A DNA stretch of 64,000 bases from Pedosphaera parvula Ellin514 (GTDB lineage Bacteria > Verrucomicrobiota > Verrucomicrobiia > Limisphaerales > Pedosphaeraceae), in assembly GCF_000172555.1 (NCBI RefSeq), contig NZ_ABOX02000013.1:1-64000 (forward strand), in the 5' to 3' direction. The notes under the pieces were generated by a model that saw nothing but the letters and a program-made list of their open reading frames with translations, was not told the origin of the DNA and did not search any database. A program made the translations under genes and the position numbers. Of the stretch, positions 30,488-35,374 are shown in pieces (positions within the stretch are counted from its first letter, which is position 1; each line of letters starts with the position of its first letter).

Positions 30488-30794
30488 CGTGCCAAATAGC
30501 CCAGGTGCAACCCGACTTTGGGGGCAGAAGAGGAATCAACCCGCTCGAAAGGAAACTCTGTGATGAAGCGTTGTCCGCGGCCACGCAACGTCAATTTTCA
30601 TCGCCATTTCCCCAAATTGGCTGGCTTTTCTTTTTCTGAATTGCGAAGATATCAAGTACCGTGCACGGCATTTGCCATTTACTGAATAACGCTTTGGCGG
30701 AGATCACCGTCGATTCCGCCGGATCATCACCACTGCAGTTGCAGATTTGGCTTTTCAAAGGGGCTATTCTCAACTTCCAACCTGCGTTGACGCC
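30488..30794. other. Intergenic region
   Basis: This lies between the divergent SRPBCC gene and the M56-LamG gene. A perfect 10-bp palindrome, CCGTGCACGG, lies at 30659-30668. It does not resemble the BlaI-type site at 29413-29428. No gene is supported. Confidence 0.4.
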
Positions 30795-32528
30795 GTGAAT
30801 TCGTCTGCTTTAGCCCATTTCTTTGTTTGGTTGATCAGAACATCCATGGAGGCAGCGATTTTCATTTTTATCGTAGCCTTGATCCAGTTGGTTATAAAAA
30901 AACAACTTTCTCCCCGGTGGCGGCATGCCATCTGGATACTTATTGTCATACGTCTCCTGATGCCAGTTTCCCTTCCCAGTTCGCTAAGCTTGTTCAACTT
31001 TTCGCCGATCAAGCATTCTGCCGTTTTTAATTACTCGCCTTTCAAGCCTGCGTCGCGCGGAGTAACTCCTCACGCACTCGAAATGGCTGGTCGGATGGAA
31101 AAGGAGGTTGTGCCTCCTGCTGGCGGCCTGTCATCAAGCCCCCCTTCAAGTCGCAGATTTATTTGGGCATGTTTTATCATTTGGCTGGCCGGGGTCGTAA
31201 TTTTCACATCCCGCATCGTCCAATTGGATTTTGCCTTTGCTGCCAAGGTCGGACGAACAAAAATGGTTACGGACTCGGAGACGCTGGAGTTATTGGACCA
31301 GTGCCGTCGCCGCATGGGAATCCGTTTTCCAATCGGATTGCTTGAAACCGACGAAGTGCAAACTCCGGCTCTTTATGGTGCTCTCCATCCACGTCTGCTC
31401 ATCCCCAAAGGCATGAGCGCGGATCTTAATCCAGAGGAGCTGGAACACGTATTCATGCATGAATTGGCCCATATCAAGCGCCACGACATGGTGGTCCACT
31501 GGATTATGACGCTGGCCCAAATCTTGCATTGGTTCAATCCTCTGGTTTGGGCTGCCCTGGCCCGGATGCGGGTTGAACGTGAGTTGGCTTGCGACAGTCT
31601 GGTACTTTCGTATGTCAAGGATGCAGAAAAGGAATCCTATGGCAGCACTCTTTTAAAGCTGTTGGAACGATTTACCCAACCCAGCCCCAATCCCGGGATC
31701 GTTGGAATCATGGAGAGAGCGGAGCCTATAAAGGAGCGGATTTTGAGCATTGCCCACTACAGGAAGGAAGCACAATGGTCATTCTCTGCCCTCCTGCTGA
31801 TTCTCCTCCTTGGCACCATCGGACTTACGGATGCGAGAACTTCATTGTCGGATTTGCCGGGCCTAACCCACTGGTGGCCGGCTGATGGAACTGCTGAAGA
31901 AAAGATCGGTGGCCACCATGCCATTTTGCACGGCAACCCTGGTTTTGCACCTGGCGTATATGGTCAGGCTTTCGATCTGAATGGCATCGATCAGTTCATT
32001 GAAGTTCCCAGCAGTCCCGACTTATGCCCAAAGGGTAGCTTTTCCATCTCTACATGGGTTTTTCCCAGGCAGGATAAGCAGCAGGTCATCATTTCAAAAT
32101 GGGGAGTGTGGCCGGCCGAATACAATAATCGTTCGTTTGTATTGCACACCCTGCCCGAACTGGGTTTGCGTTTCTGCACCTCGGATTTGAAAAATCAATG
32201 GAATTTTCATTACCAATATTTTGAGACAAAATTTGAGGTTTTGGCGACGAACAAGTGGAATCATGTTGTGGCTGTCTACGACCAGGCTTCCGGCCGGCGG
32301 CAAATGTATGTAAATGGGATGATTGTGGCGGAAAGGATGGATCCTCCGATAACTCTCCTGGAAACCACCGTGCCTCTCGGCATAGGCGCGGTGATTGAAG
32401 ACGCGAAATGCACCAAAACCCACAGTTATTTTAACGGGTTGATTGACGATATCCGGATCTATTCCCGCGCGCTCTCTGCCGAGGAGATCATGAGGATTTA
32501 TAAAATGACCGGTATGAAAGAGCCCTAG
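30795..32528 (+). CDS. M56 (BlaR1-like) membrane metallopeptidase fused to a LamG domain
   Basis: The protein has 577 residues from a GTG at 30795, chosen because family alignment expects about 15 residues before L-I-R-T-S-M-E-A. A TTG at 30747 and an ATG at 30846 are alternatives. Transmembrane helices flank a zinc peptidase domain with H222-E-L-A-H226 in VFMHELAHIKRHD, then N-P-L-V-W and ERELACD. This is the BlaR1/MecR1 type, which cleaves a BlaI-like repressor when activated. After the last helix (WSFSALLLILLLGTIGL) the usual penicillin-binding sensor is absent. A LamG/concanavalin domain follows (about residues 355-575; THWWPADGTAEEKIGGHHAI; W-N-H-V-V-A-V-Y-D; FNGLIDDIRIYSRALSAEEI). Confidence 0.88.
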   Translation: MNSSALAHFFVWLIRTSMEAAIFIFIVALIQLVIKKQLSPRWRHAIWILIVIRLLMPVSLPSSLSLFNFSPIKHSAVFNYSPFKPASRGVTPHALEMAGRMEKEVVPPAGGLSSSPPSSRRFIWACFIIWLAGVVIFTSRIVQLDFAFAAKVGRTKMVTDSETLELLDQCRRRMGIRFPIGLLETDEVQTPALYGALHPRLLIPKGMSADLNPEELEHVFMHELAHIKRHDMVVHWIMTLAQILHWFNPLVWAALARMRVERELACDSLVLSYVKDAEKESYGSTLLKLLERFTQPSPNPGIVGIMERAEPIKERILSIAHYRKEAQWSFSALLLILLLGTIGLTDARTSLSDLPGLTHWWPADGTAEEKIGGHHAILHGNPGFAPGVYGQAFDLNGIDQFIEVPSSPDLCPKGSFSISTWVFPRQDKQQVIISKWGVWPAEYNNRSFVLHTLPELGLRFCTSDLKNQWNFHYQYFETKFEVLATNKWNHVVAVYDQASGRRQMYVNGMIVAERMDPPITLLETTVPLGIGAVIEDAKCTKTHSYFNGLIDDIRIYSRALSAEEIMRIYKMTGMKEP

Positions 32529-32585: not shown

Positions 32586-32999
32586 TCAACCAACGCGAAA
32601 GGAGATCTTCGTAATAAAGTCCCTGCCAAAACTGTGCTGCAGGCGGTCGAGGATTTCTTTGCGTCGATACCGAACGATTTCATTCAACCAGACGCTGCTG
32701 TCCACGCTTACAAACAAGGTTCCCTTGTTAATGCCCGTGGGTTGCGCATGGGCAACAATCATGGGATCAATCAAGTTGTTCCAGACTTTCACCACCTCGG
32801 CGTCCGAACGGTGATTGTCCAGTCGCATATCCTTCAGAACTTTTGGCAACAGTTCAGACGCCTTGCGTGCCCGCATGGCCTGACCCTTTTCAATCGGAGC
32901 GAAATCGACCCCACGCCATTGCGCGAGGATTCGCTGCCGCGCATCCCCTTTCGGCGGGCCGAGCTTATACTTCCGAAACGGCTTTGGAATCAGAGCCAT
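32586..32999 (-). CDS. DUF721/DciA-like protein
   Basis: This 137-residue cytoplasmic protein has the DUF721 core: A-S-E-L-L-P-K-V-L-K-D-M-R-L, V-V-K-V-W-N-N-L-I-D-P-M-I-V-A-H-A-Q-P-T-G-I-N-K-G-T-L-F-V-S-V-D-S-S-V-W-L-N-E-I-V-R-Y-R-R-K-E-I-L. DciA proteins load or hold the replicative helicase DnaB in bacteria lacking DnaC. The N-terminal about 40 residues are basic and specific to this lineage. Neighbours give no further support, since DciA genes are often placed alone. It is convergent with the M56-LamG gene. Confidence 0.82.
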   Translation of the reverse strand: MALIPKPFRKYKLGPPKGDARQRILAQWRGVDFAPIEKGQAMRARKASELLPKVLKDMRLDNHRSDAEVVKVWNNLIDPMIVAHAQPTGINKGTLFVSVDSSVWLNEIVRYRRKEILDRLQHSFGRDFITKISFRVG

Positions 33000-33319: not shown

Positions 33320-35374
33320 CTACTTCTTCGGATGTTCGTCGAGAACCAACACGCCATGCGGTGGCAACTCATAATTTCCCGCCACGGTGGAACTCGTCAG
33401 AAAGTCGTGCATCGGTTTGTAAAACTGTATTCGCACCGGCGAGTTCTGATGATTTAACAGGAAAAACACCCGCGTGTTGTCCTTCTGCCGCATGCTCACC
33501 TCCACCGTATCCGGTACCTTCAGCAACGGTGGAATATTGCAAAGCTGCCGCAGCCAAACGATCAAATCATCATAGAAATGTTGATGACTCATCGTTCCAA
33601 TGTAAATGGCACGACCCAGGCCGAACGTATTCATCGTTATCGCCGGACGACCGGAGTAAAAATCCTTCGCGAACGTAGCCAGAATCTGACATCCGTTTGG
33701 CTCGATCAGATCACACCAAACTCTGGCCATGTGCATGTGTGAGGTTGGAAAGGAGCCCTTGAAAGCCATATGATTCTCTTCATCCGGCGGCAGAGGATCG
33801 AATTCCGACACCTCCAGGCCGAACAGATCCGTCATGTTATGCGGGTAACAGCCGTCCGGGGCCATATGATGTTCATCCACCAGACCCGTGTTGAATGTGC
33901 CAACCAACGTACCGCCATTCTGGACATACAACTTCAAGAGATCCGCCTCGCCTCCCGCCAGGAGTTGAAGTGAGGGCGCAATCACCAGCTTATATTTCGA
34001 AAGATCCTCCGTTGGCCGCGCGAAATCGACCGGAATATTCCGGTGATGCAGTCCGTTGTAAAACAATTGCACGTGATCGCGCAGATTAAAATGCCTGGTC
34101 GGCTGCGGGCCGTATTGTGTCGACCAATCGTTTTCATGGCTGTACAGGATGCAGACATCCGCCGCCACCTGGGTATCCTTGAGCGTGGGAGCGAGGAACT
34201 TCAACTCCTCGCCGATTTGGGCAATCTCCTTGTAAGTGCGGCCATCCTTCCGGCCATTGTGCGAGAGAATCGCGCCATAAAACTTCTCCGTTCCCATGCG
34301 CGGTTGACGCCAACGAAAATAAAGAATGCCACAAGCCCCGCGGGAAATGCATTGGTATGTAAACAACCGCACCACCTCAGGCCGCAGCAATGAATTCACC
34401 TCCTGCCAGTTCACATGCCCGGCCTTCTGTTCGATCACCCAGAAACCGGTGTCACCGTCCGGCGTGCGAATATCTGTCTTCTTCAGCGAACGCAACATGT
34501 CCAACTCACACGCGAGTTCCGACGACTTCGACTTGATTGTCGCGTTGCTGTCGATCGAGACGAAGTCCAACACATGCGCCACGTCAAAGTGATCGAACTT
34601 CCTCCGTAGCGCGCGAAGATTCGAAGTAACGGGGCGGCCCTGGCTTAGCTCGTGCAGGATATCCGCCTGCATCTTGACAAAGGCCACAATCGTATCGCTG
34701 TTGAACCGCGCCCAATCCAGCATCAATGCCGGATTGTGATGCGTAGGCGCATGCATCGGCATCGGCACATGATCCCAATCCGAGTACATCTGGCACCAAT
34801 GCGCCGTTCCGAGAAACTGGTTCAGCCGCTCAACCGTTTCGTACTTGGCCTTCAACCAGCCATGCCAATCGCGTCGGGTTTGTTCATTATACGAACATTC
34901 CGTGTTATGTCCGCCCAGGCCGTTATCGATCTGCCAGCCGATCAGTTGCGGATGATTGCCGAGAGCGGTTGCCATTTCGCGAACGATCTTGCGTGAAAAG
35001 TCCCAGTAAACGTCGCTGTTCAGGCAGCACGCCCGCCGCGTGCCCGCACTAAACGCAATTCCTTTTTCATCCAGCGGAAGGATTTCGGGATATTTCTTCG
35101 CCATCCAAACTGGTGGCGCTGCCGTTGGCGTGCCGAGTACCACCTTGATGCCGGCCTTGCCCATGACATCCATGGCCCGTTTGAGCCAGTCGAATTTGTA
35201 TTTGCCCTCCTCGGGCTCGCACAAGCCCCAGGTGAATTCGCCCATGCGGACGACGTTGACGCCTGCGCCGACCATCAGCTCGGCATCATTTTTCCAACAC
35301 GCCTCCGGCTCTTCAGGCGTGCCTGCGTACGGGTAGATCCAATGCTCCGGATAGTAGTCGACACCAAAGTACAT
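33320..35374 (-). CDS. GH42 beta-galactosidase homologue with altered acid/base position
   Basis: This 684-residue protein has no signal peptide. The GH42 pattern is clear: M-Y-F-G-V-D-Y-Y-P-E-H-W at the start, VVRMGEFTW, T-P-T-A-A-P-P-V-W-M, then a beta-trimer domain (about residues 400-600) and a C-terminal domain. The nucleophile is E315 in FWVIEQKAGHVNW. The acid/base Glu, normally the last residue of W-Q-I-D-N-E, is replaced by Gly152 (WQIDNGLGGHNTE; codon GGC at 34921-34919). E159, seven residues later, might take over. GH42 enzymes release galactose from beta-galactosides. With the classical acid missing, normal activity is in doubt. It stands alone, followed by the hairpin at 33180-33207. 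Confidence 0.9.
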   Translation of the reverse strand: MYFGVDYYPEHWIYPYAGTPEEPEACWKNDAELMVGAGVNVVRMGEFTWGLCEPEEGKYKFDWLKRAMDVMGKAGIKVVLGTPTAAPPVWMAKKYPEILPLDEKGIAFSAGTRRACCLNSDVYWDFSRKIVREMATALGNHPQLIGWQIDNGLGGHNTECSYNEQTRRDWHGWLKAKYETVERLNQFLGTAHWCQMYSDWDHVPMPMHAPTHHNPALMLDWARFNSDTIVAFVKMQADILHELSQGRPVTSNLRALRRKFDHFDVAHVLDFVSIDSNATIKSKSSELACELDMLRSLKKTDIRTPDGDTGFWVIEQKAGHVNWQEVNSLLRPEVVRLFTYQCISRGACGILYFRWRQPRMGTEKFYGAILSHNGRKDGRTYKEIAQIGEELKFLAPTLKDTQVAADVCILYSHENDWSTQYGPQPTRHFNLRDHVQLFYNGLHHRNIPVDFARPTEDLSKYKLVIAPSLQLLAGGEADLLKLYVQNGGTLVGTFNTGLVDEHHMAPDGCYPHNMTDLFGLEVSEFDPLPPDEENHMAFKGSFPTSHMHMARVWCDLIEPNGCQILATFAKDFYSGRPAITMNTFGLGRAIYIGTMSHQHFYDDLIVWLRQLCNIPPLLKVPDTVEVSMRQKDNTRVFFLLNHQNSPVRIQFYKPMHDFLTSSTVAGNYELPPHGVLVLDEHPKK

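Follow-up and report, generated by a model that had tools for sequence, protein, structure and literature searches.

The protein encoded at 33320–35374 on the reverse strand of the window, which is the whole 64,000-nucleotide stretch of Pedosphaera parvula Ellin514 DNA analysed here, belongs to an order-wide verrucomicrobial GH42 subfamily in which the acid/base glutamate was lost once, in the common ancestor, and which has since been kept under purifying selection. By its sequence and fold the protein belongs to GH42, yet, judging from our alignments, it fails two defining catalytic features, the acid/base Glu and the catalytic Tyr, and the best reading of the subfamily appears to be that it is not a conventional beta-galactosidase.

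The product is a full-length GH42 member by sequence and predicted fold. All three GH42 Pfam domains (catalytic PF02449, E-value 3.7e-118; trimerisation PF08532, 1.6e-55; C-terminal PF08533, 4.9e-08) score above cut-off over the full length of the 684 residues, and the AlphaFold model has a mean pLDDT of 92.5 and a pTM of 0.92. The top Foldseek matches are all GH42, and the predicted three-domain fold resembles that of characterised beta-galactosidases (BiBga42A, the Thermus A4 enzyme, Bca-beta-Gal 3tts and the LacZ 9ta3) with TM scores of 0.87–0.93, at sequence identities of only about 25–38%. The N-terminus (MYFGVDYYPEHW) is immediately GH42 domain, which leaves no room for a signal peptide.

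Around residue 152, the translated reading frame includes HPQLIGWQIDNGLGGHNTEC, in which the WQIDNE of GH42 reads WQIDNG, as the sequence-only reading had reported; Gly152 is encoded by GGC at 34919–34921 on the reverse strand (GCC on the forward strand). This residue is equivalent to Glu160 of BiBga42A and Glu141 of the Thermus A4 enzyme, so that the N-E motif closing beta-4 lacks its general acid/base Glu. The motif WQxDN[E/G] aligns ungapped with the solved GH42 structures 1kwg and 9ta3, with Gly152 falling on their acid/base Glu, and we found no other Glu in the acid/base column of the alignment to these two structures; an alignment slip concealing another Glu was rejected for this reason. 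Of 111 distinct clade proteins, none carries Glu at this position and 108 carry a small residue (74 Gly, 28 Ser and 6 Ala, besides one each of Asn, Pro and Lys), whereas all 61 GH42 proteins from the phylum that were examined outside the clade have Glu. These counts bear out the earlier judgement that a sequencing error is unlikely, which had correctly noted that a change from a Glu codon (GAA/GAG) to GGC takes two substitutions.

In addition, a paralogue with 56% identity reads WQVDDK, with Lys at the acid/base position, in two loci (L172, G325:C21; L174, G369:C548); a genome holding this paralogue also holds the Gly152 form, and the copy in a sister genome bears an in-frame TAG. Among the loci listed, and with kinship ignored, Ser151 was found with Gly152 and never with Ser152, a pairing that may possibly reflect compensation.

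In a maximum-likelihood tree from which the motif columns had been left out, all Glu-less proteins form one clade (SH-aLRT 100%), for which a single loss suffices. The proposal of a clade-wide active-site variant is thus strongly supported; the sequence D-N-G-x-G-G-H-x-T-E that had been put forward to mark this clade is too narrow, and D-N-G was rejected as a signature, since residue 152 may also be Ser or Ala and N151 is not constant. The median pairwise dN/dS is about 0.09 (maximum 0.19; 126 pairs with dS below 1.5), and the gene is therefore under purifying selection.

We then mapped the distribution of the subfamily. A scan of chromosomes with one genome per species, seeded with 8-residue query peptides so that distant members elsewhere could escape it, returned 97 relatives; the 80 that were kept, at 66–83% identity, all come from Verrucomicrobia or bacterial bins. 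A match was present in 197/293 genomes sampled from the same order, about 190 of which hold an orthologue by our own count, most of them in one copy, the remaining matches being either weak or to canonical GH42 proteins. Of 289 genomes sampled across the phylum, the window's own was the only one with the orthologue, the next-best full-length GH42 scoring 443 bits against 1661 at 36% identity, and in plasmid records no match reached at least 60% identity to the query, the best among the matches listed being 38.5%. An orthologue with 67–75% identity is also found on contigs labelled as Akkermansia muciniphila and Methylacidimicrobium fagopyrum (L011, L045, L073); these sequences group among those of Pedosphaera and Limisphaerales, and the bins are therefore probably mislabelled.

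To place the remaining active-site residues, we mapped those described for BiBga42A (PMC10688820) onto the 111 clade proteins, with the 61 other GH42 proteins of the phylum as the comparison set. The nucleophile region VIEQKAG is intact, as had been noted earlier, and Glu315 (34430–34432, reverse strand; Glu318 of BiBga42A) is present in 111/111 clade proteins and 61/61 elsewhere. The same holds for Arg113 (35036–35038, reverse strand; Arg121 of BiBga42A, an O3/O4 contact), and most sugar-recognition residues among the galactose O3/O4/O6 and stacking contacts are retained, including E363 (Glu366, also an O3/O4 contact; 108/111), W323 (Trp326; 107/111) and F353 (Phe356), while the position of His369 of BiBga42A is mostly Tyr (57) or His (43).

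Other positions have loosened. Asn151 (34922–34924, reverse strand; Asn159 of BiBga42A, an O2 contact) is Asn in all 61 comparison proteins, and in the clade is Asn in 95, Ser in 13 and Cys, Thr or Asp in one each; the Asp275 position is Glu in 60 and Asp in 42, with others in the rest. The catalytic Tyr (Tyr287 of BiBga42A), for which Y287F lowers kcat 80–170 fold (PMC10688820), is not present in the 684-residue protein, which has Asn277 (34544–34546, reverse strand). Elsewhere this position is Tyr in 59 and Phe in 2 of the 61, and about 91% of the clade has neither (N46, T34, D7, A5, H3 and others); its loss is not absolute, as 5 Tyr and 5 Phe remain among the 111.

Two basic residues have been gained. 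Arg254 (34613–34615, reverse strand; 109 Arg and 2 Lys of 111) corresponds, by a constant numbering offset and the alignment, to Met262 of BiBga42A, a residue that keeps the acid/base in position and borders subsite +1 (PMC10688820); this position is Met in 36/61 other GH42 proteins, where Arg is not among the common residues. Lys317 (34424–34426, reverse strand), two residues beyond the nucleophile, is specific to the clade (110 Lys and 1 Gln) and is Ser, Ala, Gln, Thr or Cys elsewhere. The alignment suggests a placement of R254 and K317 facing into the pocket, where these near-invariant basic residues would be candidates for a phosphate site at subsite +1. E315, R254 and K317 are all retained in the paralogue with Lys at 152. 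Neither these gains nor the loss of Tyr277 had been mentioned in the sequence-only reading. Furthermore, Cys161 and Cys163 of the usual Zn loop are replaced by Ser and Asn.

Since the acid/base Glu is missing, the full two-glutamate mechanism is impossible for this protein. The reading towards which we lean slightly, while rating it somewhat short of an even chance, is a nucleophile-only active site working on a leaving group or acceptor that is anionic or self-activated. Glu315 would attack a galactose-like sugar bound through R113, E363, W323 and F353; with a leaving group or acceptor of this kind, the proton donor would be dispensable; and the cationic pair R254/K317 would hold the group where the acid/base side chain used to be. 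Such a site would suit phosphorolysis, transfer to or from an acidic acceptor, or the cleavage of glycosyl phosphates or esters.

This mechanism is consistent with the small residue at 152 (108/111), the invariant E315 and R113 (both 111/111), the retention of E363 (108/111) and W323 (107/111), the replacement of Met by R254 (109 Arg and 2 Lys), the near-invariant K317 (110/111), the survival of E315, R254 and K317 in the 56%-identical paralogue with Lys152, the single loss (SH-aLRT 100%) and the median dN/dS of 0.09. Moreover, on pNP-galactoside the E160A exchange in BiBga42A lowers kcat by just 170-fold and hardly alters Km (PMC10688820), and good leaving groups therefore tolerate loss of the acid/base. 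GH130, in which basic and carboxylic residues set phosphorylases apart from hydrolases (PMC4599007), is a further precedent. Against it count the variable Y277, N151 and D275, because the O2 contacts and the Tyr are important to the transition state and such variation is the pattern expected if catalysis were relaxed, as well as a neighbourhood of DciA or family-21 glycosyltransferase genes in place of a sugar-utilisation cluster. The more specific proposal of a natural, order-wide GH42 phosphorylase or transferase, in which a retaining clan GH-A enzyme would have dropped its acid/base and used an Arg/Lys anion site to admit phosphate or an acidic acceptor in place of water, is unlikely.

Almost as likely as the nucleophile-only site, and likewise below an even chance, is a binding-only pseudoenzyme, in which the GH42 fold would serve as a cytoplasmic sugar or glycan sensor or scaffold and E315 would act as a ligand contact or as the salt-bridge partner of K317/R254. 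The loss of the acid/base, the absence of both Tyr and Phe at 277 in about 91% of members and the variable O2 contacts N151 and D275 all agree with this, as do the retention of the ground-state recognition residues R113, E363 and W323 and a gene that is not clustered with sugar-utilisation genes. However, residue 152 stays small and the nucleophile invariant across 111 diverse proteins, and binding by itself offers no obvious explanation for a nucleophile that never varies; it is on these two observations that the slight preference for the nucleophile-only site depends. An altered mechanism and a binding-only protein, the pair of alternatives offered earlier, remain the right ones, between which sequence cannot choose.

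An ordinary hydrolase whose acid/base role has moved elsewhere is improbable. The replacement could be Glu159, a His of a neighbouring subunit such as H213, or a clade-specific invariant residue such as D264; E159 is present in 106/111 and H213 in 108/111 clade proteins, and a report on GH117 (PMC11574756) describes a His/Asp dyad that can act as catalyst. Glu159 (34898–34900, reverse strand), which lies just outside the segment highlighted in the sequence-only reading (34901–34921, residues 152–158), had been raised there as a possible relocated acid. In five clade members, though, it is replaced (by A, A, L, D and H), so that these lack both glutamates, and both 9ta3 (NEYGCHISEC) and 19 of 61 canonical GH42 proteins have an equivalent Glu beside a normal acid/base; E159 was therefore probably in place before the loss. 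Most of the clade lacks the catalytic Tyr as well, and residues 151–160, with a mean pLDDT of about 80, are among the less confident parts of the model. Taken together, these observations make E159 an unlikely relocated acid. Finally, a decaying pseudogene or a sequencing or assembly artefact, which has only the surprise of the substitution itself in its favour, was rejected as having a negligible chance, given that more than 100 genomes share this state, that the frames are full-length and that dN/dS is about 0.09.

The gene neighbourhood was also inspected. Downstream of the GH42 gene, on the same strand, lies a gene for the replicative helicase loader DciA (32586–32999, reverse strand; PF05258 was detected on the homologue in locus L010), and this dciA cluster recurs in 37 sets of flanks, the window's among them, with 13 more in which an antisense miscall is present. 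In 20 other loci, a family-21 glycosyltransferase gene is found downstream, mostly at 46–48 bp and in one case at 570 bp (in L048, L052, L061 and others, a ceramide glucosyltransferase/HpnI-like gene about 47 bp away), and an AsmA-like gene often precedes the GH42 gene by about 95 bp. Among the most frequent neighbours, no transporters or further sugar-degrading genes recur, and an assignment of the substrate from gene neighbours fails, with no sugar-utilisation cluster, dciA in one set of loci and the glycosyltransferase in another. These neighbours may point to a housekeeping or envelope-glycolipid function and away from the use of polysaccharides. The window also encodes, at 30747–32528 on the forward strand, a 593-residue protein with an unusual pairing of a BlaR1-type M56 peptidase with a LamG/concanavalin-like lectin domain.

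Compared with GH42 beta-galactosidases, the protein shares the nucleophile Glu, Arg113, Glu363, Trp323 and Phe353, and differs in its missing acid/base Glu, the Tyr mostly lost across the clade, the exchange of Met for Arg254, the new Lys317 and the altered Zn-loop cysteines. It resembles engineered acid/base mutants of retaining glycosidases (BiBga42A E160A, thioglycoligases), in which the nucleophile is kept and a small residue replaces the acid/base, and, like them, could be expected to work only with activated leaving groups and strong nucleophile acceptors; unlike them, the clade is natural, order-wide and selected, and carries the R254/K317 changes. Myrosinase, a plant GH1 enzyme, is a natural retaining enzyme that has a nucleophile without an acid/base Glu and acts on a good leaving group; it has Gln at the acid/base position, unlike the Gly, Ser or Ala of the clade, and serves as an analogy only. 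Klotho, a GH1-like co-receptor, uses a glycosidase fold that has lost one catalytic Glu for binding, but is an animal membrane protein in which the catalytic pair was lost in a different pattern. GH130 enzymes are inverting and, unlike the GH42 clade, have a different fold. The likeness lies in their basic and carboxylic residues, whose exchange, according to one study (PMC4599007), separates phosphorylases from hydrolases and decides between phosphorolysis and hydrolysis.

In the open-access literature, we found no description of a GH42 protein without the acid/base and no characterised member of the clade. Annotation pipelines are likely to label these proteins as beta-galactosidases, and genome-based inferences of polysaccharide use by soil and freshwater Verrucomicrobia may count them, though half of the catalytic pair is absent. 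Our comparisons suggest that they probably do something other than ordinary sugar-bond hydrolysis. If active, they would be a natural counterpart of the acid/base mutants made by glycochemists, shaped by selection to do without a proton donor; should they be inactive, they would represent an order-wide cytoplasmic sugar-binding protein retained for a core function.
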